Shown here: piece by piece, positions 17,330 through 29,536 of the stretch
How the letters are laid out: the number at the start of each line of letters is the position of its first letter
Numbering within the stretch: position 1 is the stretch's first letter
Source: Deltaproteobacteria bacterium
GTDB lineage: Bacteria > Myxococcota > Myxococcia > SLRQ01
Length of the DNA stretch: 35,688 bases
NCBI GenBank assembly: GCA_029210625.1
Contig: JARGFU010000008.1
Span: 202,661-238,348 of the forward strand
Direction: 5' to 3'
Notes under the pieces: generated by a model
The model's database searches: none
Seen by the model: only the letters and a program-made list of their open reading frames with translations
What the model was told of the DNA's origin: nothing
Position numbers and translations under genes: made by a program

Positions 17330-17357
17330 TTGAATCTGCGGCCGTGAAGACTATTGT
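17330..17357 (+). promoter_or_regulatory. Candidate promoter for the bd-type oxidase genes
   Basis: TTGAAT at 17330-17335 and TATTGT at 17352-17357 are separated by 16 bases, each 4 of 6 to the sigma-70 consensus, and lie 35 bases before the TTG start. The match is modest and such pairs occur by chance. Confidence 0.35.
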
Positions 17358-17392
17358 GCCCCCCGCAACCCAGGCGCACTCCGGAGGCAATC

Positions 17393-18913
17393 TTGAGCTA
17401 CCCCTTCTGGGACATCCCCTTCGGCTACGGCCCCCTCATGGGTGGGCTAGCCATCTTCCACGTCTTCATCTCTCACTTCGCGGTGGGCGGCGGCCTCTAC
17501 CTGGTGGTGGTCGAGACCATCGCCCGCAAGAAGAACGACACCGAGACCCTCGACTTCCTCGAGGGCCTCTCGAAGTTCTTCGTGCTGACCACCCTGGTGA
17601 TGGGGGCGCTGACCGGCGTCGGCATCTGGTTCATCATCGGCCTGCTGAACCCGGCGGCCACCGAGGCCCTGATCCGCCACTACGTCTGGGCCTGGGCGAT
17701 CGAGTGGACCATGTTCGTGGTCGAGATCGCCGCGGCGATCCTCTACTTCTACGGCTGGAAGAAGATGGACCCGAAGGCCCACCTCAAGCTGGGCTGGCTC
17801 TACTTCGGCGCGGCCTGGGGCTCGCTCCTGGTGATCAACGGGATCATCACCTTCATGCTCACCCCCGGCACCTGGCTGGAGACGGGCAGCTTCTGGGACG
17901 GCTACTTCAACCCGACCTTCTGGCCCTCGCTGGTCTTCCGCACCGGCATCGCCATCACCATGGCGGGCCTCTGGAGCGTGATGGTCCTCTCTCGCCGGAA
18001 GGCCGACGACTTCAAGGCCCGGGCGGTGCGCCACACCACGGCCTGGGGCCTGCTGGGCCTCGCGATCACGGTGCCCTCCTTCTACTGGTACTGGCTGGCC
18101 ATCCCCGAGGCGATGCGCACGACCCTCGTCGAGCAGATGCCCACCCCGATGATGGCCTTCAAGATGACCTACGTGCTGGCCGCCGTGCTGGCGGGCATCT
18201 TCCTGGTCTTCGGCATCGCCCTCTCCCGCCGCTTCGTCTTCCCCATCGCCGCGGTGGCGATGGTCGTGGGCATCCTCTCCTTCGGCTCCTTCGAGTGGTT
18301 CCGGGAGTCGGCCCGCAAGCCCTACGTCATCGGCGGCTACATGTACGGCAACGGGATCGAGGTGGCGAAGGTCGAGACCTTCCAGAAGGAGGGGATGCTG
18401 ACCCACATCCCCTACCGCACCGAGGACGCCGGCGCCGACCTCTTCCGGCACGCCTGCCGGCACTGCCACACCCTCGACGGCTACAAGCCCCTCGAGCCCG
18501 CCCTCGGAGGCATGGACACCGACTTCATCGCGGGCGTGATCAAGGGCACCCAGGTCATCAAGGGGAACATGCCCCCCTTCGCCGGGAGCGAGGGGGAGGT
18601 CCAGCTCCTGGCCGACTACCTGGCGCGGGCCACCGACCAGCGGCCCCTGGCCGAGATCACGGGACTCTCGGGCAAGGCGCTGGGCGCCGAGGTCTACGCC
18701 CGGCGCTGCGGGATCTGCCACGAGCTCGGGGGCTTCCGGGACATCAGCGAGTCGCTGGTCGACTCGGACGCCGAGGAGCTCGGCGCGCTCCTCGACTCGG
18801 CCGGTGAGTACGCCGAGGAGATGCCCGCCTTCACCGGAGACGACACCGAGCGCGCGGCGCTGATCGAGTTCCTCGAGGCGCTCGAGCCCGCCGCCCAGGA
18901 GGACGCATCGTGA
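17393..18913 (+). CDS. bd-type oxygen reductase subunit I with two fused c-hemes
   Basis: A CydA-related membrane protein with a C-terminal cytochrome c region, 506 residues from the TTG at 17393 (GGAGG at 17383-17387, 5-base spacing). Residues 12-310 hold about nine membrane segments. Recalled alignment to E. coli CydA suggests His23 = the heme d ligand, Glu104 and Glu111 = E99 and E107, and Glu305 in FRESARKPY = the heme b595 ligand. Arg183 (VFRTG) stands where the heme b558 ligand His186 would be, and no Q-loop is visible. The soluble tail has CRHCH (355-359) and CGICH (439-443). This matches bd-superfamily oxidases that probably take electrons from cytochrome c rather than quinol. The stop overlaps the next gene (GTGA). 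Electron source and heme content need checking. Confidence 0.85.
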   Translation: MSYPFWDIPFGYGPLMGGLAIFHVFISHFAVGGGLYLVVVETIARKKNDTETLDFLEGLSKFFVLTTLVMGALTGVGIWFIIGLLNPAATEALIRHYVWAWAIEWTMFVVEIAAAILYFYGWKKMDPKAHLKLGWLYFGAAWGSLLVINGIITFMLTPGTWLETGSFWDGYFNPTFWPSLVFRTGIAITMAGLWSVMVLSRRKADDFKARAVRHTTAWGLLGLAITVPSFYWYWLAIPEAMRTTLVEQMPTPMMAFKMTYVLAAVLAGIFLVFGIALSRRFVFPIAAVAMVVGILSFGSFEWFRESARKPYVIGGYMYGNGIEVAKVETFQKEGMLTHIPYRTEDAGADLFRHACRHCHTLDGYKPLEPALGGMDTDFIAGVIKGTQVIKGNMPPFAGSEGEVQLLADYLARATDQRPLAEITGLSGKALGAEVYARRCGICHELGGFRDISESLVDSDAEELGALLDSAGEYAEEMPAFTGDDTERAALIEFLEALEPAAQEDAS

Positions 18914-19974
18914 ACCTTCCCACCCATGACTTCCTCTCCGCGCCCCTCTGGCTGCTGACCACCCTCCACATCCTGACCCTCACCCTCCACTTCGTGGCGA
19001 TGAACTTCGTCCTGGGCGGGGTGGCGATCATGATCTGGGGCAAGTGGACCGATCGCTGGGAGAACCCGGTCGTCCAGACCTTCGTGAAGGCCTTCCCCTC
19101 GGTGATGGCCGCCACCGTGACCCTGGGCGTGGCGCCCCTGCTCTTCGCCCAGCTGGTCTACGGCCAGGTGATCTACTCGGCGGCGGTGACCAGCGCCTGG
19201 TTCTTCCTGGCCATCGTGCCGGTGGTCATCCTCGGCTACTACTCCTTCTACGGCGCCGCCCTCTTCGACCTCTCGGGTGAGCGCAAGTCCCGCCTGCTGG
19301 TGGTGGCGCTGACCTGCCTGGTCTACGTCAGCCTGGTCTACGTCACCGTCTTCGCCATGGCGGAGAGCCCCGAGAAGATGGCCGCGGCCTACGCCAACAG
19401 CCCCGGCGGCTGGGTGATCTACCCGGTGGTGGGGGAGTGGTTCTTCCGCTGGGCGCACATGTTCCTGGGGGCCCTCACCGTCGGCGGCTACTTCGTGGGC
19501 CTGCTGGGCCGGGAGAACGAGGAGGCCTTCAAGATCGGCAAGACCTTCTACCTCTGGGGCCTCATCGGCGCCTCCCTGGCTGGCCTCGCCTACGTGGGCA
19601 TGCTGGGGGATCACCTCAAGCCCTTCATGCAGAGCTCGGGCATCTGGGTGCTGACGGTCGCGGTCGTCCTCTCCCTGGGCTCGGCCCACCTCTTCTTCAA
19701 GAAGAAGTTCGTGCCGAGCGGCGCCCTGATCTTCCTCTCCCTGCTGGGGATGGTGATCACCCGCCACATCCTGCGCCTGGTGAAGCTGCGCGAGGTCTTC
19801 GACCCCGCCAGCATCCGGGTGGACGCCCAGTGGAGCCTCGCCGGCCTCTTCATCCTCTGCTTCGTGATCATGCTCGGCCTGCTCTTCTGGATGGTGAAGC
19901 TTTTCCGTACTACCGGGGGTGCCGCGCACCCCCGCCCCACCGGCGAAGCCGTCGGGGCCCCACCCCCGCGCTGA
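18910..19974 (+). CDS. Second CydA-like membrane subunit of the bd-type oxidase
   Basis: A 354-residue protein with eight or nine membrane segments starting at the GTG that overlaps the previous stop. Its first helix (TTLHILTLTLHFVAMNFVLGG) and the following 'VVQTFVKAFPSVMAATVTLGVAPLLFAQ' resemble the start of CydA rather than CydB, so it looks like the CydA' partner seen in bd-superfamily oxidases that lack CydB. It carries histidines in helix 1 (His20, His27) and others (EWFFRWAHMF, DHLKPF, SAHLFF). It has no CxxCH. The C-terminus is a short Gly/Pro/Ala tail whose coding sequence forms a hairpin. Two GC hairpins follow, consistent with the end of a two-gene operon. Confidence 0.78.
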   Translation: MNLPTHDFLSAPLWLLTTLHILTLTLHFVAMNFVLGGVAIMIWGKWTDRWENPVVQTFVKAFPSVMAATVTLGVAPLLFAQLVYGQVIYSAAVTSAWFFLAIVPVVILGYYSFYGAALFDLSGERKSRLLVVALTCLVYVSLVYVTVFAMAESPEKMAAAYANSPGGWVIYPVVGEWFFRWAHMFLGALTVGGYFVGLLGRENEEAFKIGKTFYLWGLIGASLAGLAYVGMLGDHLKPFMQSSGIWVLTVAVVLSLGSAHLFFKKKFVPSGALIFLSLLGMVITRHILRLVKLREVFDPASIRVDAQWSLAGLFILCFVIMLGLLFWMVKLFRTTGGAAHPRPTGEAVGAPPPR

Positions 19975-20057: not shown

Positions 20058-20675
20058 GTGAGCGAGCGGCGGCAGCACTGGGAGCAGATCTACGCCTCGA
20101 AGGCCCCGGAGGGGGTCTCCTGGTACCGGCCACACCTGGAGCAGTCGCTGGGCTTCATCGATCGCTGCGCGCTCCCCGCCGACGCGCGGATCGTCGACGT
20201 GGGTGGGGGAGCCTCCACCCTGGTCGACGATCTGCTCGCCCGGGGCCACCGAAACCTGGCCGTGATCGATCTGGCCGCCCCGGCCCTGGAGGCCGCGCGC
20301 GCCCGCCTCGGCGAGGACGGCGCGGCGATCGACTGGATCGTCGGGGACGTGACCACGCCCCTGCTCGAGCCGGAGAGCGTCGACCTCTGGCACGACCGGG
20401 CCGTCTTCCACTTCCTGGTCGAGGAGGAGGCCCGGGCCGCCTACCTCTCGCAGGTCCTGCGGGCGCTGAAGCCCGGCGGCCTCTGCCTGGTCGCCACCTT
20501 CGCCCCCGACGGCCCCGAGCAGTGCAGCGGCCTGCCCGTCGTCCGCTACGACGCCGACGGCCTCCACGCGGTCTTCGGCGGTAGCTTCGAGAAGCTCGGC
20601 TCGGCCACCGAGCAGCACGAGACCCCCTGGGGCTCCGCCCAGAGCTTCACCTACTGTTTCTGTCGCCGGGTCTAG
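20058..20675 (+). CDS. Class I SAM-dependent methyltransferase
   Basis: A 205-residue protein starting at the GTG at 20058. SAM motif I is VDVGGGASTLVDDLL (around residue 40), with an acidic residue at the end of beta-2 (LAVIDLAAPALEAAR), motif II/IV around WHDRAVFHFL, and a hydrophobic strand GGLCLVATF. The N-terminal RRQHWEQIYASKAPEGVSWYRP is typical of a small-molecule methyltransferase family often annotated as 'trans-aconitate-like or class I SAM methyltransferase'. The substrate is unknown. Its stop shares CTAG with the convergent SUMF1-fold gene. Confidence 0.88.
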   Translation: MSERRQHWEQIYASKAPEGVSWYRPHLEQSLGFIDRCALPADARIVDVGGGASTLVDDLLARGHRNLAVIDLAAPALEAARARLGEDGAAIDWIVGDVTTPLLEPESVDLWHDRAVFHFLVEEEARAAYLSQVLRALKPGGLCLVATFAPDGPEQCSGLPVVRYDADGLHAVFGGSFEKLGSATEQHETPWGSAQSFTYCFCRRV

Positions 20676-21688
20676 GGCCAGACGCAGCGGAGACCGACGT
20701 CGGGGTGGGCCTCGCCGGGGGCGAGCGGCGATCGGCGCGTGCTGCGGGCGTCGAAGCGCGCGCGGTGATCGGAGGGGCTGGCGTAGCCGCCGCCCTTGAG
20801 GACCTTGCGGGTGTCCGTCTCCCGGCCCTGGCCGGGGGTGCGCAGCAGCATCGCCTCGGGGTCGGGGGGCGGCAGCCTTCCCTCGGGCAGGCCCTCGGGT
20901 CCGGTGGGATCGGCCGCGGGCGAGCGGGCGAAGTAGCCGGCGTCGTACCAGTCGAGGGTCCACTCCCAGACGTTGCCGGCCATCCCCCGGGCGCCCTCCG
21001 GGGTCGCGCAGTCGGAGTGGGCGTCGACCGGCGCCGGCGCCTCGAGCCCGATCGGGCAGCGGCCCGCCTCCCAGGCGCCCTCGAAGGGATAGGCTCGCCC
21101 ACCCTTGCCCCGGGCCGCCCGCTCCCACTGCGCCTCGGTGGGCAGGTCGCCGCCGGCCGCCCGGCAGTAGACCCGGGCGTCCCGCCAGGTCAGCCAGCGC
21201 ACCGGCAGCTCGGCCTCGCGGCGCAGCCGCTCGCGGTGCGGCTCCAGCGACAGGCCCGCGATCCCGGCGCGCGCGTCCTCGCCGGTGGCGGCCCGCACCG
21301 CGGCGATCGTCGCCTGCCAGCGCGCCCGGACCTGCGGCTCGAGGCTCGCCTCGACCTTCGAGAGCGGCCCGCCCTGCTCGCGCTCGAGCTGGGCGAGCCC
21401 CTCGAGGGCAAGCTCCAGGCTGCCCAGGTAGGGCTGGCCCTCCAGGGTCCCGAAGCCGCCGTGCTCGCGCAGGTGGGAGAGGAAGTCGGCGTTGCTCACC
21501 TCGTGCCGGCCGATCCGGTAGGCGCGCAGTCGCACCGGGTGGGCCGGCGCCTCCTCGGCGGGGCCGCCGTCCCGGCCGACGATCGCCGGGCCCGCCGGGA
21601 TCGAGATGGCGTCCTCGGGAGCGGCGGCGAGCGCCGGGCTCGAGAGCAAGAGCGCCAGCAGCGCCGCGACGAGGGAGGGGCGGTTCAA
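20672..21688 (-). CDS. Secreted SUMF1-fold protein, probably not a formylglycine enzyme
   Basis: A 338-residue protein starting at the TTG at 21688 (GGGAGGGA upstream, TTGA overlap with the previous stop). Signal peptide to about residue 19 (ALLALLLSSPALA-AAPE), then the formylglycine-generating-enzyme fold: ISIPAGPAIVGRD, HEVSNADF, PTEAQWERAARG, GMAGNVWEWTLDW, VLKGGGYASPSDHRARF, DVGLRCVW. An insertion between about residues 70 and 150 is rich in Glu/Arg helix. In FGE the catalytic cysteine pair lies in the stretch following GGS; here that region has no cysteine, so formylglycine formation is unlikely. SUMF1-fold proteins also act in other roles, such as NirV-like partners of redox enzymes. 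Last gene of a five-gene operon. Confidence 0.85.
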   Translation of the reverse strand: MNRPSLVAALLALLLSSPALAAAPEDAISIPAGPAIVGRDGGPAEEAPAHPVRLRAYRIGRHEVSNADFLSHLREHGGFGTLEGQPYLGSLELALEGLAQLEREQGGPLSKVEASLEPQVRARWQATIAAVRAATGEDARAGIAGLSLEPHRERLRREAELPVRWLTWRDARVYCRAAGGDLPTEAQWERAARGKGGRAYPFEGAWEAGRCPIGLEAPAPVDAHSDCATPEGARGMAGNVWEWTLDWYDAGYFARSPAADPTGPEGLPEGRLPPPDPEAMLLRTPGQGRETDTRKVLKGGGYASPSDHRARFDARSTRRSPLAPGEAHPDVGLRCVWP

Positions 21689-22644
21689 GCGTCCCTCCCG
21701 ATGCGGAAGCCCAGGTCGAAGTTGCGGAAGGTGGGCTCGCGCTGCTCGCGCGCGCTGCAGCGCACCTGGGAGGGGACGCTGCGGCTGCTGCCCCCGCGGA
21801 TCACCCGCGCGGCGCCCGGCGCCCCCTCGACCCGCGGGTCGCGCCGGGGCGTCTCGGGGTAGGGGGCGAAGGCGTCCGCCACCCACTCGGCGGCGTTGCC
21901 GGCGAGGTTGCGGCAGCCGAAGGCGCTCTGGCCCTGCTCGAAGTGCCCGGGGGCCACGGGGTAGACGTGGGGATCCCCCTTGCCGCCGATGTTCGCGTGG
22001 CCCGTGCGCCAGTCGTCCCCCCAGGGCCAGCGCCGCTGCGCGCCCGTGGTGCCGCCGCCGCCGCAGGCCCACTCCCACTCGGCCTCGGTGGGCAGGCGCC
22101 CGCCGGCCCAGGCGGCGAAGGCGTGGGCGTCGTACCAGTCGACGCCGACCACCGGCGCGTCGTCGGCGAGGAAGGTCCTCCCGTCGAAGGGCGCGGCGGC
22201 CGCGTAGGCAGCGTCCTTCAGGAAGGGGTTGAACTCGCCCCAGTAGCGGGGGGTGTGGTCCTTGTCCGCGGGCTCGTCGGGGTGGCAGTGACGGTGGCCG
22301 ACCGTCTCGAGGGCCTCGAGGAAGCGCCGGTAGCGTGCGTTGCTCACCTCGTCGCGATCGAGGCGGAAGGCGCCGAGGCGCACGGGGTGGGCCGGCGTCT
22401 CCTCGGCCTGCCGCCACCCGGAGGACGCCCGGTAGAGCAGCACCTGCTGGGGACGCAGGGGCTTCTTCCCGGCGCCCTCGGCGGGCAGATCCTCGTGGAA
22501 GGCCTTCGCGCCCATGACGAAGCTCCCGCCGGGGATCGGCAGGAGGGCCGCCCCCTCGTCGGGCGAGGCCGACCCCGCTCCCCCCTCCCCGGAGGGACAG
22601 CCGGCGAGGCCCAGCAAAAGGCCGATGAGGAGGAGGCGCTTCAC
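21685..22644 (-). CDS. SUMF1-fold lipoprotein, lacks the FGE cysteine pair
   Basis: A 319-residue lipoprotein starting at the GTG at 22644. Lipobox LAGC with Cys16, then an acidic linker and the SUMF1 fold: LPIPGGSFVMGAKAF, RDEVSNARY, GVDWYDAHAFAAWAGGRLPTEAEWEWAC, NLAGNAAEWVADAF, RVIRGGSSRSVPSQVRCSAREQ, NFDLGFRIG. Where FGE has CxxxxC after the GGS motif, this protein has only the later RCxxR-type Cys, so it should not form formylglycine. It is the fourth gene of the chain (GTGA overlaps with the gene before, TTGA with the gene after). Membrane anchoring suggests it binds or shields the cytochromes encoded by its neighbours. Confidence 0.87.
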   Translation of the reverse strand: MKRLLLIGLLLGLAGCPSGEGGAGSASPDEGAALLPIPGGSFVMGAKAFHEDLPAEGAGKKPLRPQQVLLYRASSGWRQAEETPAHPVRLGAFRLDRDEVSNARYRRFLEALETVGHRHCHPDEPADKDHTPRYWGEFNPFLKDAAYAAAAPFDGRTFLADDAPVVGVDWYDAHAFAAWAGGRLPTEAEWEWACGGGGTTGAQRRWPWGDDWRTGHANIGGKGDPHVYPVAPGHFEQGQSAFGCRNLAGNAAEWVADAFAPYPETPRRDPRVEGAPGAARVIRGGSSRSVPSQVRCSAREQREPTFRNFDLGFRIGRDA

Positions 22645-25600
22645 TCGATGCTCTGGAGAAAGGAGACGAGGTCGTCGATCTCGTGGGCGCGCAGCTGAGA
22701 GGTGCCGCCGTGGGTGTCGAGGCCGAGGCGTCCGCCCGAGGCCATGTGGGCGCGCACCCGGCGGTTCGGGGCCGGCACCAGCCAGGTCTCGTTGAGGCCA
22801 ACCTCCCGGCGGCCGGGCCGCTCGGGCTCGGTCCCCAGGACGGGCTCGTAGGGGAAGGTGCGCAGGCCCTCCTGGCCCGGGACGCAGAGCACCTCACGCA
22901 GGGTGCGGGCGGTGCCGGCGTGGAGGAAGACGGGCGGCCGGTCCCAGAGGCCCCGCAGGGGGAAGGTGGTGTAGTGGCTCTCGTTCTCCTCCGCCCGGCC
23001 GACGTCCCAGGGCTCGAGGTCCCGGCGCAGGCCGTTGAGGGCGTCGAGGCGGTTCATGCCGATCAGGGTGAAGGAGGCGTCGCGGTTGCTCACCGTCACC
23101 ATCGCCGGCATCGACTGGGTCGGGTTGTCCGGCAGGTCCTTGAGGGCGAAGTGGGGTGGCGGGTGGCAGGAGACGCAGCCGACCTGCGGGTGCTCGAAGA
23201 GGGCCTTGCCCCGGGCCACGGCCGGGGCGTCCGGGTCGAAGGGGTTGGGCAGGAGCCTTCCTTCCGTGATCTGCCAGGCGCCGACGAAGCGGACGATGTC
23301 CCGCAGGCCGTGGGCCTTGCCGAAGACCTCCAGGCTGCGCCGCTGCAGCATCGCCTCCCGGCGAAGCTCGAGGGTCGCCTCGAAGGAGGTCGTCGCGTCC
23401 ATGCTCGACTGCACGTCGTCCACCCCGAGGTTCACCGTCGGCGCCACGAGGTGGGTGAAGTCTCCCTGCGGGGTCGGCCCGGCGAAGTCGTCGGCGGGGA
23501 TGTGCTCCATCAGCATCGAGCGGGGCTCGAAGGCCGAGAGGGTCCCCTCGAAGAAGAAGGGCTGGATGGCGAAGAGGCCTCGCATCTGCGGCACGCTCAT
23601 GGTCCCGCCGATGATCAGGCGGCCCGCCTCGTCCCCGGGGTGATCGTAGACCTGCCCCACGACCTGGCTGACGCCCCAGGGGCGGCCGTCTCCCAGATCG
23701 AGGTAGTGGCAGTGCACGCAGGAGGTGTCGCCGTCCGCGGAGAAGAGGGCGGTGTGGGCGAGGATCTCCCCGGTCTCGGCCTCGGTGGCCGGCACCGGCA
23801 GCTCGAGCACGCTGGGATCGACGACGATCTCCCGGCCCTCGCCACTCTCGAGCTCGAGGACGGAGAGGGAGCCGCCGAGGAAGTTCGCCACCAGCACCCT
23901 GCCCGCGGCCGGCCCCACCTCCCCGCCGTAGGCGATCCCGATCGGCTGCATGCCGGTGGAGAGGGTGCGAAGCGGCAGCAGGCGCTCGCTCGGATCGCGC
24001 GCCCCGGGCTGCAGCCGCAGCACCTGCACCAGGTTGCTGCCCTGCATCGTGACCAGCAGGCGGTCGCCGGCCGCGGCCATCTTCTCGGGGAGGGCGCCCA
24101 CGACCCGCATCAGGTCGGGGGGGATGTCGCCGTGCACGTCGCCGGCGGTCGACTCGGCGGTGTCGGAGGTGTAGCGCACCCAGGCGGCGTGCGACTCGTA
24201 GCGGGTCGGGGAGAGCAGGGGCGCGAGCCCGCCGGCGGGCGGCGCCTCGGGCACCTCGAGGGCGTCGAGATCGACGACCACCAGATCGTTCTGGATGTCG
24301 CGGAACTTGATCGCCGCCGTCCCGTCCACCGCGTCGGCGGGGCCGAGGAGGTCCTGCTGCTCTCGCGGCAGCACCCGGCCGGTCTCGAGGTCGCGGCGGA
24401 CGGTGTACTCGGCCGCCGGGTTCTCCCGATCCCAGCTGTCCGAGCCCCAGGGATCGCGGGCGACCCCGACGCCGAAGCCGATCCCCTCGGTCGTGACCAG
24501 CAGCCACTCCCGGCCGCCGCCCTCCATCACCCGCAGGTCGTTGACGACGTTGCCCACCCGGATCGATCCGACCTCCTGGCCGGTCGCGGTGCGCACCACC
24601 GCGATGTCCTGGGTGCCGGTGTTCCCGACCAGGAGCAGCTCACCCCCCCGGGCCAGGGCCAGAGCCTTGGGCTTGGAGCGGGGGTTGCCCACCGGGATGC
24701 CGGGCCCCGAGAGCGGCGCCTCGAGGAAGGCCCGCAGGGCCAGGGCGTCGGGGTCGCGGCCGGGCGCCTTGAAGATCACGCCCCCGGCGTGCGCCTTCTC
24801 CCGGGGCAGACGATCGGCGTAGCCCCCCTCCCGGGTGCGCACCGCCGCCCGCCAGAGCTGGGAGTTCGTCGCCGGCCCCGGGCGCCAGAGCTCGAGGAGG
24901 GAGAGGAAGCTCGCCTCGGCGTCGGCGGCCGCGACGAAGGCCCCCCGGCGCGTGGCGTGGCAGGCCTCGGCGCCGCAGCGCCTCACCAGGCGCTCGTGCA
25001 CGGAGGGGGAGCCAGCCTTGAAGTCCGCCAGCGAGAGCCCGCCCCGCTCCTCCACCTCGGCCGTGAAGCGATCGCCCTCGACCTTCACCCGCAGCGCGAG
25101 CACCTGATCGAGGTAGCGGATCGAGACCCAGGCCCGCTCGCCCCTGGCGTCGAAGATCAGCTGCTGGGCGTGGAAGTCCAGGGGGATCTCGGCGCTCACC
25201 CGATCGACCTCCGTGTCGATCACCGAGGCGAAGTTCGAGAAGCGGTTGGTCACCACCAGGAAGCGGCCCCCGGGGTGGAAGGTCAGGCGGTGAGGCGAGC
25301 TGCCCGGCGGGCCGTCCTCTCCCGGCGGGCGCAGCGCGATCCGGTGCACGGAGTCGTCGGCGAGATCGACCACCGCCACCGCGCTGCCGGGGTCTCCTTC
25401 CGAGCCGTGGAGGGAGAGGTAGACCTTTCGACCCCCGGGGTGGACCACGACGTCGAAGGGGTGATCGCGCAGGGGCTGGAGCTCGGGGTCGGGGTGCGGG
25501 TTCGCCACCGGGGGCAGCGTGGCCCGCGCGTACCTCGCGCCGTGGGCCCAGCGGGCGCTGGCCTGCACCCCGAAGCGGGAGGGCGCGCCGGCCCCGGCCG

Positions 25601-25676
25601 GCCAGGCCAGCACGGCCGCGGCCGTGGCCGCGAGGATCGTCGCCCCGGTGACGAGCTGCTTGGACGAGAGGCTCAC
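22641..25676 (-). CDS. Large beta-propeller c-type cytochrome
   Basis: A 1011-residue exported protein starting at the GTG at 25676, overlapping the previous stop (GTGA). Residues 1-30 form a signal peptide or anchor (SSKQLVTGATILAATAAAVLAW). The body has YVTN-like blades (VVVHPGGRKVYLSLHG; LTFHPGGRFLVVTNRFSNFASVID; LVGNTGTQDIAVVRTATGQEVGSIRVG; RVLVANFLGGSLSVLELES). Heme sites: an atypical C234-G-A-E-A-C239-H (CX4CH), CVHCH at 653-657 and CVSCH at 834-838, the last two within cytochrome-peroxidase-like regions. The family resembles propeller/cytochrome fusions near NirF/NirN-like or MauG-like proteins, but I can name no substrate. It probably passes electrons between a periplasmic donor and the diheme cytochrome. 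Confidence 0.85.
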   Translation of the reverse strand: MSLSSKQLVTGATILAATAAAVLAWPAGAGAPSRFGVQASARWAHGARYARATLPPVANPHPDPELQPLRDHPFDVVVHPGGRKVYLSLHGSEGDPGSAVAVVDLADDSVHRIALRPPGEDGPPGSSPHRLTFHPGGRFLVVTNRFSNFASVIDTEVDRVSAEIPLDFHAQQLIFDARGERAWVSIRYLDQVLALRVKVEGDRFTAEVEERGGLSLADFKAGSPSVHERLVRRCGAEACHATRRGAFVAAADAEASFLSLLELWRPGPATNSQLWRAAVRTREGGYADRLPREKAHAGGVIFKAPGRDPDALALRAFLEAPLSGPGIPVGNPRSKPKALALARGGELLLVGNTGTQDIAVVRTATGQEVGSIRVGNVVNDLRVMEGGGREWLLVTTEGIGFGVGVARDPWGSDSWDRENPAAEYTVRRDLETGRVLPREQQDLLGPADAVDGTAAIKFRDIQNDLVVVDLDALEVPEAPPAGGLAPLLSPTRYESHAAWVRYTSDTAESTAGDVHGDIPPDLMRVVGALPEKMAAAGDRLLVTMQGSNLVQVLRLQPGARDPSERLLPLRTLSTGMQPIGIAYGGEVGPAAGRVLVANFLGGSLSVLELESGEGREIVVDPSVLELPVPATEAETGEILAHTALFSADGDTSCVHCHYLDLGDGRPWGVSQVVGQVYDHPGDEAGRLIIGGTMSVPQMRGLFAIQPFFFEGTLSAFEPRSMLMEHIPADDFAGPTPQGDFTHLVAPTVNLGVDDVQSSMDATTSFEATLELRREAMLQRRSLEVFGKAHGLRDIVRFVGAWQITEGRLLPNPFDPDAPAVARGKALFEHPQVGCVSCHPPPHFALKDLPDNPTQSMPAMVTVSNRDASFTLIGMNRLDALNGLRRDLEPWDVGRAEENESHYTTFPLRGLWDRPPVFLHAGTARTLREVLCVPGQEGLRTFPYEPVLGTEPERPGRREVGLNETWLVPAPNRRVRAHMASGGRLGLDTHGGTSQLRAHEIDDLVSFLQSIE

Positions 25677-27520
25677 AGGCTCTTCAGGTAGGCGACGAGA
25701 TCCGAGAGCTCCGCCTCGCTCAGATCCTTCGTGCGGCCGTGCAGCCCCCGGGGATCGTGCTCGCGGAAGATCGACTCGAGGGTGGGGGCCGTGCCGCCGT
25801 GAAGGTAGGGGGCGCTGCGGTAGCACTCCCGCAGGGAGGGCGTGTCGAAGCGCGCGTGCAGATCGTCCGGCCCGCGCAGGCCCAGATCGTGGGGGCGCTG
25901 GTCGGTGAAGGTCCCTTCCGGGTGGCAGGTGTCACAGAGGGCCCGCTGGAAGACGAGGCGCCCGCGGGCGATGGCGAGCCGGCCGTCCCGGTAGGGGTTC
26001 GGGGGGCGGGGCGGATCCGAGAGGAAGGCGATCAGGGCCGCGTGCTTCTCCTCCTCCGGCAAGAAGCCCTCGAAGCGCTGGCCGGCCCGGGTGGCGGCGT
26101 CCATGTCCGCCCGCACCCCTCGCCACATGGCCGGGGCCGTGTCGTGCACGTTGCGCAGGCTCTTGGCGTTCTTGAAGTTGCCGGTGCCGTCGTTGGGCAG
26201 ATCCCAGTTCAGGCCGTCCATCCCCGCGTCCTCCTCGTGGCAGGACACGCAGGAGTACCAGGTCTGGAAGCCCAGCCGGCCGTCGTTGAAGAGGCGCTCG
26301 CCCTCGCGCCAGAGGGCGACCGCCGGCGCGAGCTCCTGCGGCGATCCCAGCGGGACGCGCCGCTTCAGCTCGCCGGTGCGCGCGTCGAGGACCGAGAGGC
26401 CGTCGCCGAAGTAGGTGGCGACGAGGAGCTCGTCGTGCCCCGGCCGCAGCGCCAGCCCCCGGGGCCCCTCCCCGCCGGCCGGCAGGCGGCGGGCGATCCC
26501 CTGGCGCCGGAGGAGCTCCACGTCCTGCGCCCGGCGCTCGACCGCCTCCGGGGCCGTCGCCTCGGCCAGGGCGAGGACGCGGGGCAGGTCCACCAGCGCG
26601 ACCTGGTGGATCCCCGCGAGGGCGACGGCGAAGGCGCTGGCGTCCGGCAGCACCACCACCCCGTTGGGGTTGGTGGCCCCCTCCAGGAGGGTGTCGAGGA
26701 GGAGCGTGACCCGGTGACCGGGCTGGTCCAGGTCGAGGATCGAGAAGCCGTTGGAGTGGATCCAGCCCCGCTCCATCTGCAGGGTCGTGACCCGGTCCCG
26801 GGAGAGGACGTGCGTGACGATGGCGTGGCGGCCGTCGGGGGTGAGGGCGACGCCCCGCAGGAGGGAGGCGACCCCGAGGGGCCGGTGCTCGAGCACCTCC
26901 CCGGTCGCGGCGGAGAGGAGGGTCACGCTGCGCCCCAGACCGTTGGCGACGACGAGCCGCGCTCCGTCGGGGGTCAGGGCCAGCGCGCTCGGCCCCCGGC
27001 CCACCCGGGCCTGCCAGAGGAGGCGGCCGGCGGGCAGCGCCAGGGCCGAGACCCGATCCTCGAGCCCACCGGTGACGAAGAGGCGCTGGCCATCGAGAGA
27101 GAGGGCGAGGCCTCGGGGCTCGGGGGAGACGGGCAGGCTAGCGCCGACCTCCCCCGCCGCCAGATCGATCCGGGCCACGGCAGCCCCGTGCTGCAAGGTC
27201 ACCCAGAGGTGCTCCTCGCCGGGGGAGAGCACGGCGGCCACCGGCCGACCCTCGACCGGGATCCGCCGCCGCACCTCGCCGCGCTGCAGGTCGAGCTCGT
27301 GGACGAGCTCGGCCCCGGCGTCGATCACCCAGGCCCGGTCCCCGTCGGCCGAGGCCACGACCGCCTCCGGCGAGCGGATCCCCCGGGTGAGGGAGGCGCC
27401 GCTCTCCTCCCCGGCCGCGGGGACCGGGGTGGGCGGCGCGGCCGCGGATCCACCCGCCGGCAGGGAGAGCGCGAGGGTGACGAGACCGCAGAGAGGCAGG
27501 ACGAGGAAGAGGCGCCTCAC
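25673..27520 (-). CDS. Beta-propeller c-type cytochrome with MauG-like tail
   Basis: A 615-residue exported protein starting at the GTG at 27520 (GTGA overlap with the previous stop; the long upstream extension is noise from the neighbouring gene). Signal peptide RRLFLVLPLCGLVTLALSLPAGGSA. Residues 45-400 hold about seven YVTN-type blades (AVLSPGEEHLWVTLQHGAAVARIDLAAGEV; ALTPDGARLVVANGLGRSVTLLSAATGEV; ALRPGHDELLVATYFGDGLSVLDARTGEL). The C-terminal third has CVSCH (424-428) and CDTCH (529-533) in a diheme-peroxidase-like context (SLRNVHDTAPAMWRG, FDTPSLRECYRSAPYLHGGTAPTLESIF). It is paralogous in layout to the next, larger gene but shorter. Confidence 0.88.
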   Translation of the reverse strand: MRRLFLVLPLCGLVTLALSLPAGGSAAAPPTPVPAAGEESGASLTRGIRSPEAVVASADGDRAWVIDAGAELVHELDLQRGEVRRRIPVEGRPVAAVLSPGEEHLWVTLQHGAAVARIDLAAGEVGASLPVSPEPRGLALSLDGQRLFVTGGLEDRVSALALPAGRLLWQARVGRGPSALALTPDGARLVVANGLGRSVTLLSAATGEVLEHRPLGVASLLRGVALTPDGRHAIVTHVLSRDRVTTLQMERGWIHSNGFSILDLDQPGHRVTLLLDTLLEGATNPNGVVVLPDASAFAVALAGIHQVALVDLPRVLALAEATAPEAVERRAQDVELLRRQGIARRLPAGGEGPRGLALRPGHDELLVATYFGDGLSVLDARTGELKRRVPLGSPQELAPAVALWREGERLFNDGRLGFQTWYSCVSCHEEDAGMDGLNWDLPNDGTGNFKNAKSLRNVHDTAPAMWRGVRADMDAATRAGQRFEGFLPEEEKHAALIAFLSDPPRPPNPYRDGRLAIARGRLVFQRALCDTCHPEGTFTDQRPHDLGLRGPDDLHARFDTPSLRECYRSAPYLHGGTAPTLESIFREHDPRGLHGRTKDLSEAELSDLVAYLKSL

Positions 27521-28290
27521 TCGCGCTCCCTCCGGAGCCAGGCGAGGTAGGCGACCATCGCCTCGAGCTCGGCGTCGGAGACGTGCTCCCGGTACGCCGG
27601 CATCTGGATGCGCTGCCCCTCCAGGTAGCGGCGGGCGAGCGCGCTCTCTGTCAGGCGAGGCGGAGCGCCGTCGAGGATCCAGGCGCGCAGCTCGTCGTCG
27701 TCTCGCACGAGCTCGGCGTACCACTCACCCTCCCAGGAGGGGATCACGCCCTTGAAGCTGCCGGGGTTGGGCAGGCCGCCGATCCCCGAGGGCCCGTGGC
27801 AGCCGAAGCAGCCCAGGCGCCGGGCGAGCTCCTTGCCCTCGTAGGCGGCGCCCGGCATCCCCTCGTCCCAGGCGGCCACGGCGAGGACGTAGGCCATCAG
27901 ATCGTCCACCTGTCCCTCCGAGAGCAGGTCGCGGTAGGCGGGCATGGGCAGGAGGCCTCCGGGCCGGGCCTCGGGCGGGCGGTCCTTCAGGCGCTCGGAG
28001 ACGCCGTCGAGGATCCACTCGCGGATCTCGGCCTCGCTCCGGGCGTAGCTCTGGAGCACTCCCCCCGACCAGCCGGGCACCCCGGCCTCGGGGAGGAGGG
28101 GATCCTCCACCCCGCCGCGGCCCGCGGGACCGTGGCAGCCGAAGCAGCCCAGCTCCCGGGCGAGGGCCTCCCCCCGCAGGGCGGCGGTGTCCTCGGCCGC
28201 GCCCCGGGGACCCCGCTCCCAGCCCTTCACGATCACCCAGATCACCAGGACCAGGGCGAGGAAGAGGAGGAGACGGGCACCGGACTTCAT
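27517..28290 (-). CDS. Diheme cytochrome c with duplicated heme domain
   Basis: A 257-residue protein with an N-terminal membrane anchor (residues 6-23) and two tandem cytochrome c domains. Heme motifs are CFGCH at 49-53 and 161-165, with distal methionines plausible in LLPMPAYRDLL and RIQMPAYREHV. The two halves align well (LARxLGCFGCHGPxGxGG..., xxxPAYRxxxSxxxxxxxMAYxLA), so the protein arose by internal duplication. It is the first gene of the five-gene minus-strand operon and is likely the electron exit or entry subunit anchored at the periplasmic face. The next gene overlaps its stop (GTGA). No ribosome-binding site is obvious before the ATG at 28290. Confidence 0.92.
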   Translation of the reverse strand: MKSGARLLLFLALVLVIWVIVKGWERGPRGAAEDTAALRGEALARELGCFGCHGPAGRGGVEDPLLPEAGVPGWSGGVLQSYARSEAEIREWILDGVSERLKDRPPEARPGGLLPMPAYRDLLSEGQVDDLMAYVLAVAAWDEGMPGAAYEGKELARRLGCFGCHGPSGIGGLPNPGSFKGVIPSWEGEWYAELVRDDDELRAWILDGAPPRLTESALARRYLEGQRIQMPAYREHVSDAELEAMVAYLAWLRRERE

Positions 28291-28390
28291 GGGTTCGCAG
28301 CGCGGTGCGTTCGAAGGGCTCGCGCCGCAGCCTATGACGATACCCGATCACCGGGCTGTGGTGACCGCCATCCATGATAGTTTCGTCGCC
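28291..28390. promoter_or_regulatory. Divergent control region between the cytochrome operon and the RidA-like gene
   Basis: The only spacer from which the five-gene cytochrome operon can be transcribed. It contains TCACC/GGTGA, a 5-bp inverted repeat with a 7-base loop at 28348-28364, which could be an operator, and ACGATACCCGATCAC at 28337-28351, which recurs with one mismatch at 29547-29561 beyond the RidA-like gene. No confident promoter hexamers. Confidence 0.4.
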
Positions 28391-29536
28391 GTGAGTAGCG
28401 ACGGCGGCAAAGGCTCCCCCGCCCCGTCCACCGCGTCGGCTGGCGCCGGCGGGGTGAACAGGCAGAGCGCGGGCGATCTCCAGCGGTGCACCATCGACCG
28501 TGGTAGCCACCGCGAGACCTGGGTGAGCGGGCGGGTGCTGGCCAACCCCTCCGCCGATCTCCGGATGCTGCGCGAGCTCCACGACGGGCGCGCCGACGGC
28601 AGCCTGGCTCGCTTGCGCCTCTTCGGCGCGAGCACGGTCGAGGCCGCCAGCCTCCTCGAGCACCTCCCGGGCTGGGAGTCCGACCTCTACCTCTCTCCCC
28701 GCCCCGGCACCCTCCCCTTCTTCGGGCTGCAGGCCCTGATCCTCGAGCCCGCCGAGGGCAGCCGCCTCGAGGCGCGGCCCCTCGAGGGTGGCGGCGAGGC
28801 CTGGCTCCTCGACGACCCCACCGGCGATCGGCGCCTGGCCTACCTCTTCCACGTCGCCTCGAGCGAGCGCGACACCCTGCGGGCCTACGAGGCCACCTAC
28901 CGGCGCGCCTTCGAAGAGCTCGCCGCCCTCGGCTTCGCGGCCCCGGAGGTCGCCCGGACCTGGTGCTTCTTCCGGGACGTCCTCGAGGACTACCCCGGCT
29001 TCAACGCGGTACGGCGGGGCTGCTTCCAGGGGCTCTCCCTCCTGGGCAGCGAGCGCATCCCGGCCAGCACCGGCATCCAGAGCATCCTCGCCAGCGGCGA
29101 GCACCTCACCCTCGACGCCCTCGCCGCGTCCGGGAGCGGCGTGACGCTCCAGCAGATCGAGAACCCGGCCCAGTGCGAGGCGACGAGCTACGGCTCGCTC
29201 TTTTCCCGGGCCATCCGGATCGAGGGCCTGGGTCCCCCCATGCTCCTGATCTCGGGGATGGCCTCCATCGACGACGACGAGGGGCTCACCCTCCACGTCG
29301 GCGACGCCCGGGCCCAGCTGGACACCACCCTCGAGAAGGCCGCGGCCCTCCTCGAGGCCGGGGGCTCGGCCTGGGAGCGGGTGGTCTCGGGCATCGTCTA
29401 CGTGAAGCCGGGACACGAGGCCCTCTTCGAGGATCCCCGCCTGGTCCGCCTGATGGACGAACACCCCCTGGCCGTGAGCCTGGCGGACGTCTGCCGCGAC
29501 GACCTGCTGGTCGAGATCGAGCTGCTGGCCGTCTAA
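28391..29536 (+). CDS. RidA/chorismatase-like protein
   Basis: A 381-residue protein if started at the GTG at 28391; an ATG at 28334 gives a longer form but leaves only 43 bp for two divergent promoters. The N-terminal 30 residues are low-complexity. The rest resembles the FkbO/Hyg5 chorismatase and RidA-like superfamily: YHxx-like ARTWCFFRDVLEDYPGFNAVRRGCFQG (central), then a C-terminal RidA-type domain with GSLFSRAIRIEG, LLISGMASIDDDEG and AWERVVSGIVYVKP. RidA proteins hydrolyse reactive imines, and chorismatases hydrolyse chorismate; the catalytic residues cannot be assigned by eye, so either activity is possible. It is divergent from the cytochrome operon and its stop codon lies inside a 25-bp inverted repeat. 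Confidence 0.75.
   Translation: MSSDGGKGSPAPSTASAGAGGVNRQSAGDLQRCTIDRGSHRETWVSGRVLANPSADLRMLRELHDGRADGSLARLRLFGASTVEAASLLEHLPGWESDLYLSPRPGTLPFFGLQALILEPAEGSRLEARPLEGGGEAWLLDDPTGDRRLAYLFHVASSERDTLRAYEATYRRAFEELAALGFAAPEVARTWCFFRDVLEDYPGFNAVRRGCFQGLSLLGSERIPASTGIQSILASGEHLTLDALAASGSGVTLQQIENPAQCEATSYGSLFSRAIRIEGLGPPMLLISGMASIDDDEGLTLHVGDARAQLDTTLEKAAALLEAGGSAWERVVSGIVYVKPGHEALFEDPRLVRLMDEHPLAVSLADVCRDDLLVEIELLAV

Follow-up and report, generated by a model that had tools for sequence, protein, structure and literature searches.

Five consecutive minus-strand genes, encoding a diheme cytochrome, two heme-containing beta-propeller proteins and two SUMF1/FGE-fold proteins, raise the question of which enzyme they form and what it acts on. 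The genes lie in a 35,688-nucleotide stretch of contig JARGFU010000008.1 from a Myxococcota genome, hereafter the window. The best reading of the evidence is a form of periplasmic oxidoreductase of the hydrazine synthase (HZS)-like/MauG type that the literature searched does not describe. The coordinates, strand and 4-base overlaps of genes A to E given in an earlier note were verified: the four junctions (GAGTGAGG, CTGTGAGC, GAGTGAAG and GCTTGAAC) overlap by GTGA three times and then by TTGA. The extent assigned there (20672-28290) is right for these five genes and leaves out a conserved sixth, F, which lies on the opposite strand just upstream of A (Table 1). By inspection, all five products look exported or anchored, as had been claimed, with a membrane anchor at the N-terminus of A, signal-peptide-like N-termini in B, C and E, and a lipobox-like 'LLLGLAGC' in D. 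The count of seven heme sites (two in A, two in B and three in C) also stands, and their Cys-Cys-His residues are conserved in every locus having the gene. The third-position GC of the cassette genes is 0.94-0.97, like that of neighbouring genes, so A to E are well-adapted genes.

Table 1. Genes of the cassette, the adjoining gene F, and heme-related sites (positions in the window)
Feature	Position	Strand	Description
Gene A	28290-27517	-	N-terminally anchored di-heme class-I-type cytochrome c, 257 aa
Gene B	27520-25673	-	YVTN propeller and diheme MauG/bCcP/HZS-gamma-like domain, 615 aa; HZS beta-gamma fusion-like
Gene C	25676-22641	-	Propeller with inserted cytochrome segment and HZS-gamma-like diheme domain, 1011 aa, three heme sites
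Gene D	22644-21685	-	Putative lipoprotein, SUMF1/FGE-fold, 319 aa
Gene E	21688-20672	-	SUMF1/FGE-fold, the second such protein; 338 aa, signal peptide at the N-terminus
Gene F	28379-29536 (start approximate)	+	FkbO/Hyg5-chorismatase/Rid-like; divergent from A
Heme sites of A (CFGCH, twice)	28146-28132 and 27810-27796	-	
Heme site of B (CVSCH)	26251-26237	-	
Heme site of B (CDTCH)	25936-25922	-	
CX4CH site of C, CGAEACH (C234, C239, H240)	24957..24977	-	In the segment inserted into the propeller
H296 of C	24791-24789	-	Invariant; candidate distal ligand of the CX4CH heme
CVHCH site of C (C653, C656, H657)	23706..23720	-	Invariant in 13 orthologs and the 23-sequence alignment
CVSCH site of C (C834, C837, H838)	23163..23177	-	Invariant in 13 orthologs and the 23-sequence alignment

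The five-gene order, which the earlier note had proposed to look for elsewhere, recurs in 12 further genomes, six of Planctomycetota and six of Verrucomicrobiota, giving 13 loci with that of the window. In GTDB contigs, a scan recovered all five genes in this order from two Verrucomicrobiota, DG1235 and Pelagicoccus sp. SDUM812002, and wider searches added four more members of the phylum. A cassette-type C was present in 5 of 388 genomes in these wider searches (DG1235 included) and in 6 of 343 Planctomycetota genomes, there at 59-64% identity; the 12 cassette C orthologs together are about 52-64% identical to the C of the window. The order B-C-D-E is preserved in all 13 loci, E included, and A is seen in 11; in the two loci lacking A (L133 and L134) the cassette starts less than 700 bases from the contig start. 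Spacing is tight nearly throughout, with estimated gaps mostly between -61 and +140 bp, the exception being L133, where D and E are 941 bp apart. Since the order is kept in all loci and the genes are closely spaced nearly everywhere, the cassette is not a chance arrangement. The genes were thus not found scattered in relatives, and the literature searched held neither a description of the cassette nor a characterised operon of the same order.

The cassette is rare and cross-phylum. It was absent from 58 relatives of the same class and from the other 194 Myxococcota genomes searched, and a plasmid collection searched with C gave no match; these statements hold for the genomes searched, and the assembly that contains the window is split into 64 contigs. 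Myxococcota matches to C are about 25-36% identical and lack the CX4CH insert, and no homolog of A, D or E was seen around them in the stretches read. Two further kinds of match were not accepted as cassette members, namely B-like matches in Myxococcaceae, which cover mostly the C-terminal heme domain, and E-like matches, which are confined to the generic SUMF1 core. In the tree of C, the 13 cassette sequences form one clade (100/99), and the Myxococcota sequence of the window sits on a long branch whose placement among Planctomycetota the tree leaves open. With this branch and the absence from relatives, the Myxococcota copy looks horizontally acquired; a recent transfer is not supported, as third-position GC matches the neighbours. 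Near the cassette but not conserved with it, positions 17354-19974 (+) encode an unusual oxidoreductase, a cytochrome-bd-subunit-I-like protein (Cyt_bd_oxida_I, 2e-12) with a pair of c-type heme domains at its C-terminus, and after it a membrane protein that matched no Pfam family.

Gene A matches the Pfam families Cytochrom_C/Cytochrome_CBB3 in two stretches and is a double class-I cytochrome c. Both Cys-Cys-His sites, Met116 and Met230 are invariant in 11 orthologs, and the two methionines are candidate axial ligands; heme ligands were assigned from conservation alone. In three Verrucomicrobiota loci (L116, L117 and L118), A and B are encoded as one continuous reading frame (about 860 aa) that contains four heme motifs. 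This fusion is the strongest evidence that A is, very probably, the electron partner of B.

Gene B was compared with two families. Against the NCBIfam model hydrazine_BC it scored 163.6 bits (E 5.5e-48) over both propeller and heme domain, below the curated cut-off of 1250 bits for the beta-gamma fusion. Among solved proteins it comes closest to an archaeal surface-layer propeller of the YVTN type, to HZS beta and to HZS gamma, with PDB matches to 5c2v_B (E 1.7e-32) and 5c2v_C (E 5.8e-22). The AlphaFold model (pLDDT 65), which was built on a 3-sequence alignment and is unreliable in the heme domain, has 5c2v_B as its top Foldseek match (TMt 0.86). By profile and fold, B combines a seven-bladed YVTN propeller with a diheme gamma-type domain, and the earlier description of B and C as beta-propeller cytochromes is confirmed. 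At the same time, B exceeds the cut-off of Pfam CCP_MauG PF03150 (37.9 against 25.6 bits) and carries an invariant 'TPSL...H.G' motif. Trp466, invariant in 13 of 13 orthologs, occupies the position that is His144 in HZS gamma and the catalytically important Trp in CCP/MauG (PMC12758564). The two c hemes, the inter-heme Trp466 and the CCP_MauG domain place B in the MauG/bCcP superfamily.

These MauG-type features would also be expected of a periplasmic peroxidase, in which B uses H2O2 with A as donor in the manner of bCcP, or of a MauG-like maturation enzyme, in which the target of oxidative modification by B is a residue of D, of E or of some other protein; the A-B fusion resembles donor-enzyme fusions. 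However, the heme domain of B alone scores 85 bits to HZS gamma and 35 bits to the best di-heme peroxidase or MauG-kind enzyme in the PDB, C and F are left without a role, and B was rejected as MauG and as MbnH on equivalog scores far under the cut-offs (35.5 of 443.9 and 39.7 of 362.9 bits, respectively). We consider a peroxidase or maturation function unlikely.

Gene C reached no Pfam cut-off on its own, its heme domain included. The profile of 23 C sequences (A2) matched HZS beta with 87.8 bits and HZS gamma with 50.7 bits in the PDB, and the AlphaFold model (pLDDT 72, pTM 0.81), which is weak around two hemes, has 5c2v_B as its top Foldseek match (TMt 0.70). Profile and fold together give C the propeller and diheme gamma-type domain of HZS. 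The Cys-Cys-His of its CX4CH site is kept in 13 of 13 orthologs, the L133 variant being CGSCH (CX2CH). No activity is known for many proteins that combine a propeller with a cytochrome, and the heme domain of C falls under all Pfam cut-offs, both of which agree with a generic electron conduit of cytochrome and scaffold proteins that has no enzymatic active site. Yet B has invariant Trp466, Arg and His residues around its hemes, and C has a long conserved core in its heme domain, a pattern that resembles an active site and not a wire; a pure conduit is accordingly very improbable.

Hydrazine synthase, the anammox enzyme that makes hydrazine from NO and ammonium, is the best-matching solved enzyme for both B and C by profile and fold. 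The parallel drawn in the earlier note, NirV beside nitrite reductase, is not the closest one; B and C are HZS beta-gamma-like. The match would suit a divergent nitrogen-oxide enzyme in which B and C perform HZS-type chemistry (NO reduction or N-N/N-O chemistry). Alternative substrates have been proposed for HZS-like families (PMC10732223), and an octaheme HAO-family gene occurs in 4 of the 13 host genomes, the window's among them. Several observations speak against such an enzyme. No HAO-family match was obtained in the other nine genomes, and of the 13 cassette genomes 12, the window's included, lack the HZS_alpha domain (PF18582). The cysteine that provides the third thioether to heme gammaI in HZS, gamma-Cys165 (PMC12758564), has no equivalent in B, where the pairwise alignment, gapped in this region, places AGQRFEGF against VCGRDPGF of HZS gamma; a cysteine is absent from this segment in all 13 B orthologs. 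The gamma-His144 position is taken by Trp466. Finally, Met ligation would give the hemes of A a high potential, whereas HZS hemes are reported to be low-potential (PMC12607021). Nitrogen-oxide chemistry is, in our estimate, quite unlikely. Hydrazine synthase itself was rejected on the missing alpha, the missing Cys165, the His144-to-Trp replacement and the hydrazine_BC score; judged by its sequences, the cassette is HZS-like and not a hydrazine synthase.

Two multiheme HAO-family matches (PF13447) were located in the window's own genome, at C3:254860-255372 and C7:109817-110599. An HZS-alpha-like gene lies beside the cassette at L129:14523-17426 (-), and the planctomycete genome G1031 contains 11 HZS_alpha matches.

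The SUMF1 fold assigned earlier to D and E is borne out by PF03781, with 156.6 bits for D and 120.5 bits for E (cut-off 23.3), which identifies an FGE-sulfatase domain in both; the closest solved relatives of D are CalU17 and FGE. The kinship does not extend to the catalytic cysteines. FGE carries its catalytic copper-binding Cys pair in the segment compared here, and this segment reads GGSSRSVPSQVRC in D and GGGYASPSDHRARF in E, with no Cys pair in either. Both were rejected as formylglycine-generating enzymes on this ground: they share the PF03781 fold with the FGE/SUMF1 family (FGE, EgtB, PvdO, GldK and CalU17) and differ in lacking the pair. A NirV-type role was dismissed as well, since neither the cassette nor the adjacent genes that were scanned include a nitrite reductase.

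Gene F is found with the cassette in 10 of the 13 genomes and was not seen near L129, L133 and L134. It adjoins A divergently in the window and follows E in nine other cassettes; in L118 (14168-15375) it is split over two overlapping frames, which suggests a frameshift or sequencing error. The identity of the window's F is only 27-31%, its score against TIGR04444 is 52 bits, below the cut-off of 325, and its best solved relative is FkbO (4bps, E 3.3e-8). The family profile best matches the Hyg5-type structures 5ag3 and 5a3k and FkbO chorismatases, followed by Rid proteins. DAHP synthase, which catalyses the first step of the shikimate pathway, is encoded after F in three Planctomycetota loci (L130-L132; the L132 copy scores 378.9 bits, cut-off 335). 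The Glu of the LLVEIE motif aligns with Glu-334 of Hyg5, and E379 and E381 are invariant in F orthologs; Rid proteins may have a Glu at this position too, so the shared residue is not diagnostic. In Hyg5, Glu-334 is catalytic (PMC7170507). F shares with the FkbO/Hyg5 chorismatases, its best solved relatives, the aligned Glu, but differs in its low score and could have another Rid-superfamily activity. The family of F and its DAHP synthase neighbour are the only substrate clue, from which we infer that chorismate or one of its derivatives is the probable substrate of F.

Taken together, the genes of the cassette probably specify a multi-heme oxidoreductase that works in the periplasm and belongs to the HZS-like/MauG-bCcP superfamily. 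The tightly coupled periplasmic electron-transfer system of the earlier note holds as regards the unit, for which the order across three phyla, the seven heme sites and the A-B fusions speak; complex formation and the direction of electron flow are predicted. B would be the likely catalytic subunit, with a reactive heme and a bCcP/MauG-type Trp between the hemes. C would be either a further catalytic unit or an electron relay, and would add a third heme, the CX4CH heme, probably bis-His with H296. A, as a membrane-anchored di-heme cytochrome of His/Met type, would exchange electrons directly with B and thereby link the unit to the respiratory chain, and D and E may be non-catalytic scaffold or assembly proteins. 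If F acts in the cytoplasm on chorismate or a related metabolite, the periplasmic reaction would most likely concern a small chorismate-derived aromatic, which would be oxidised, its electrons leaving through A. That an aromatic compound is the substrate is put forward as a tentative and in itself rather doubtful proposal. A further step is more speculative still, and we give it little credence: an HZS-like complex outside anammox would have been redirected to a chorismate-derived aromatic that F, together with DAHP synthase in some hosts, makes in the cytoplasm and that the heme complex of A, B and C transforms in the periplasm. If this were true, HZS, MauG and the cassette would be branches of one versatile enzyme architecture.

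The cassette is of interest for the origin of HZS, being a compact relative that is spread over three phyla and contains two beta-gamma-like proteins. Its natural A-B fusion points to the electron partner, and the metabolic clue given by the chorismatase/Rid-like gene and DAHP synthase has not been reported for alpha-containing clusters. Because a Pelagicoccus strain has the cassette, its function is directly testable.

Compared with known systems, the cassette shares the CCP_MauG domain and the Trp in B with diheme cytochrome c peroxidase, MauG and MbnH, and differs from them in the propeller fusion, the three-heme partner C and scores far below the equivalog models. With HZS beta-gamma (the fused HzsBC of Scalindua and the K. 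stuttgartiensis HZS, PDB 5c2v) it has in common the seven-bladed YVTN propeller and diheme gamma-type domain of B and the propeller and diheme domain of C, whereas alpha is mostly missing, A, C, D, E and F are additional and scores lie far below the HZS equivalog cut-offs. Non-anammox HZS-like clusters, grouped in clades I-IV, combine an alpha-like with a beta-gamma protein, some with FG-GAP/CRTAC1 or ABC substrate-binding genes, and clades I-III have Trp at the gamma-His144 position (PMC12758564). They share with the cassette the fused beta-gamma-like protein, the conserved Trp and, in some clades, extra heme sites; none is described with two beta-gamma-like proteins, a SUMF1 gene or a chorismatase-like gene (PMC12758564).

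A second operon type (L061-L075) comprises, besides C, a four-heme protein resembling HZS alpha, ApbE (where seen), a small cytochrome with three hemes and RnfC/RnfG/RnfD-like proteins. It is widespread in Bacteroidota, Acidobacteriota, Planctomycetota, Verrucomicrobiota, Pseudomonadota and Myxococcota, and also includes two small membrane proteins (e.g. L064:9001-18808 and L072:9001-20290). Its C ortholog has the same CX4CH insert as that of the cassette at 37-40% identity, and a CGTxxCH-type site occurs in nearly all C proteins of this type and is absent from distant Myxococcota paralogs. Two intermediates, L060 and L135, which are sister to the cassette clade in the C tree, combine C with an HZS-alpha-like gene and with an ApbE that is joined in one protein to a SUMF1 domain resembling D; L135 has, in addition, a SUMF1 gene that resembles E. 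The ApbE flavin transferase-SUMF1 fusions (L060:7940-9898 and L135:7318-9207) link SUMF1 proteins to flavin-dependent electron input. In contrast to the cassette, the second operon type has flavin/Rnf-type electron input in place of cytochrome A and no B, and D/E appear only in the two intermediates. Based on the C tree and gene content, the cassette may derive from an alpha-containing system in which the flavin/Rnf-type input was exchanged for A and B.
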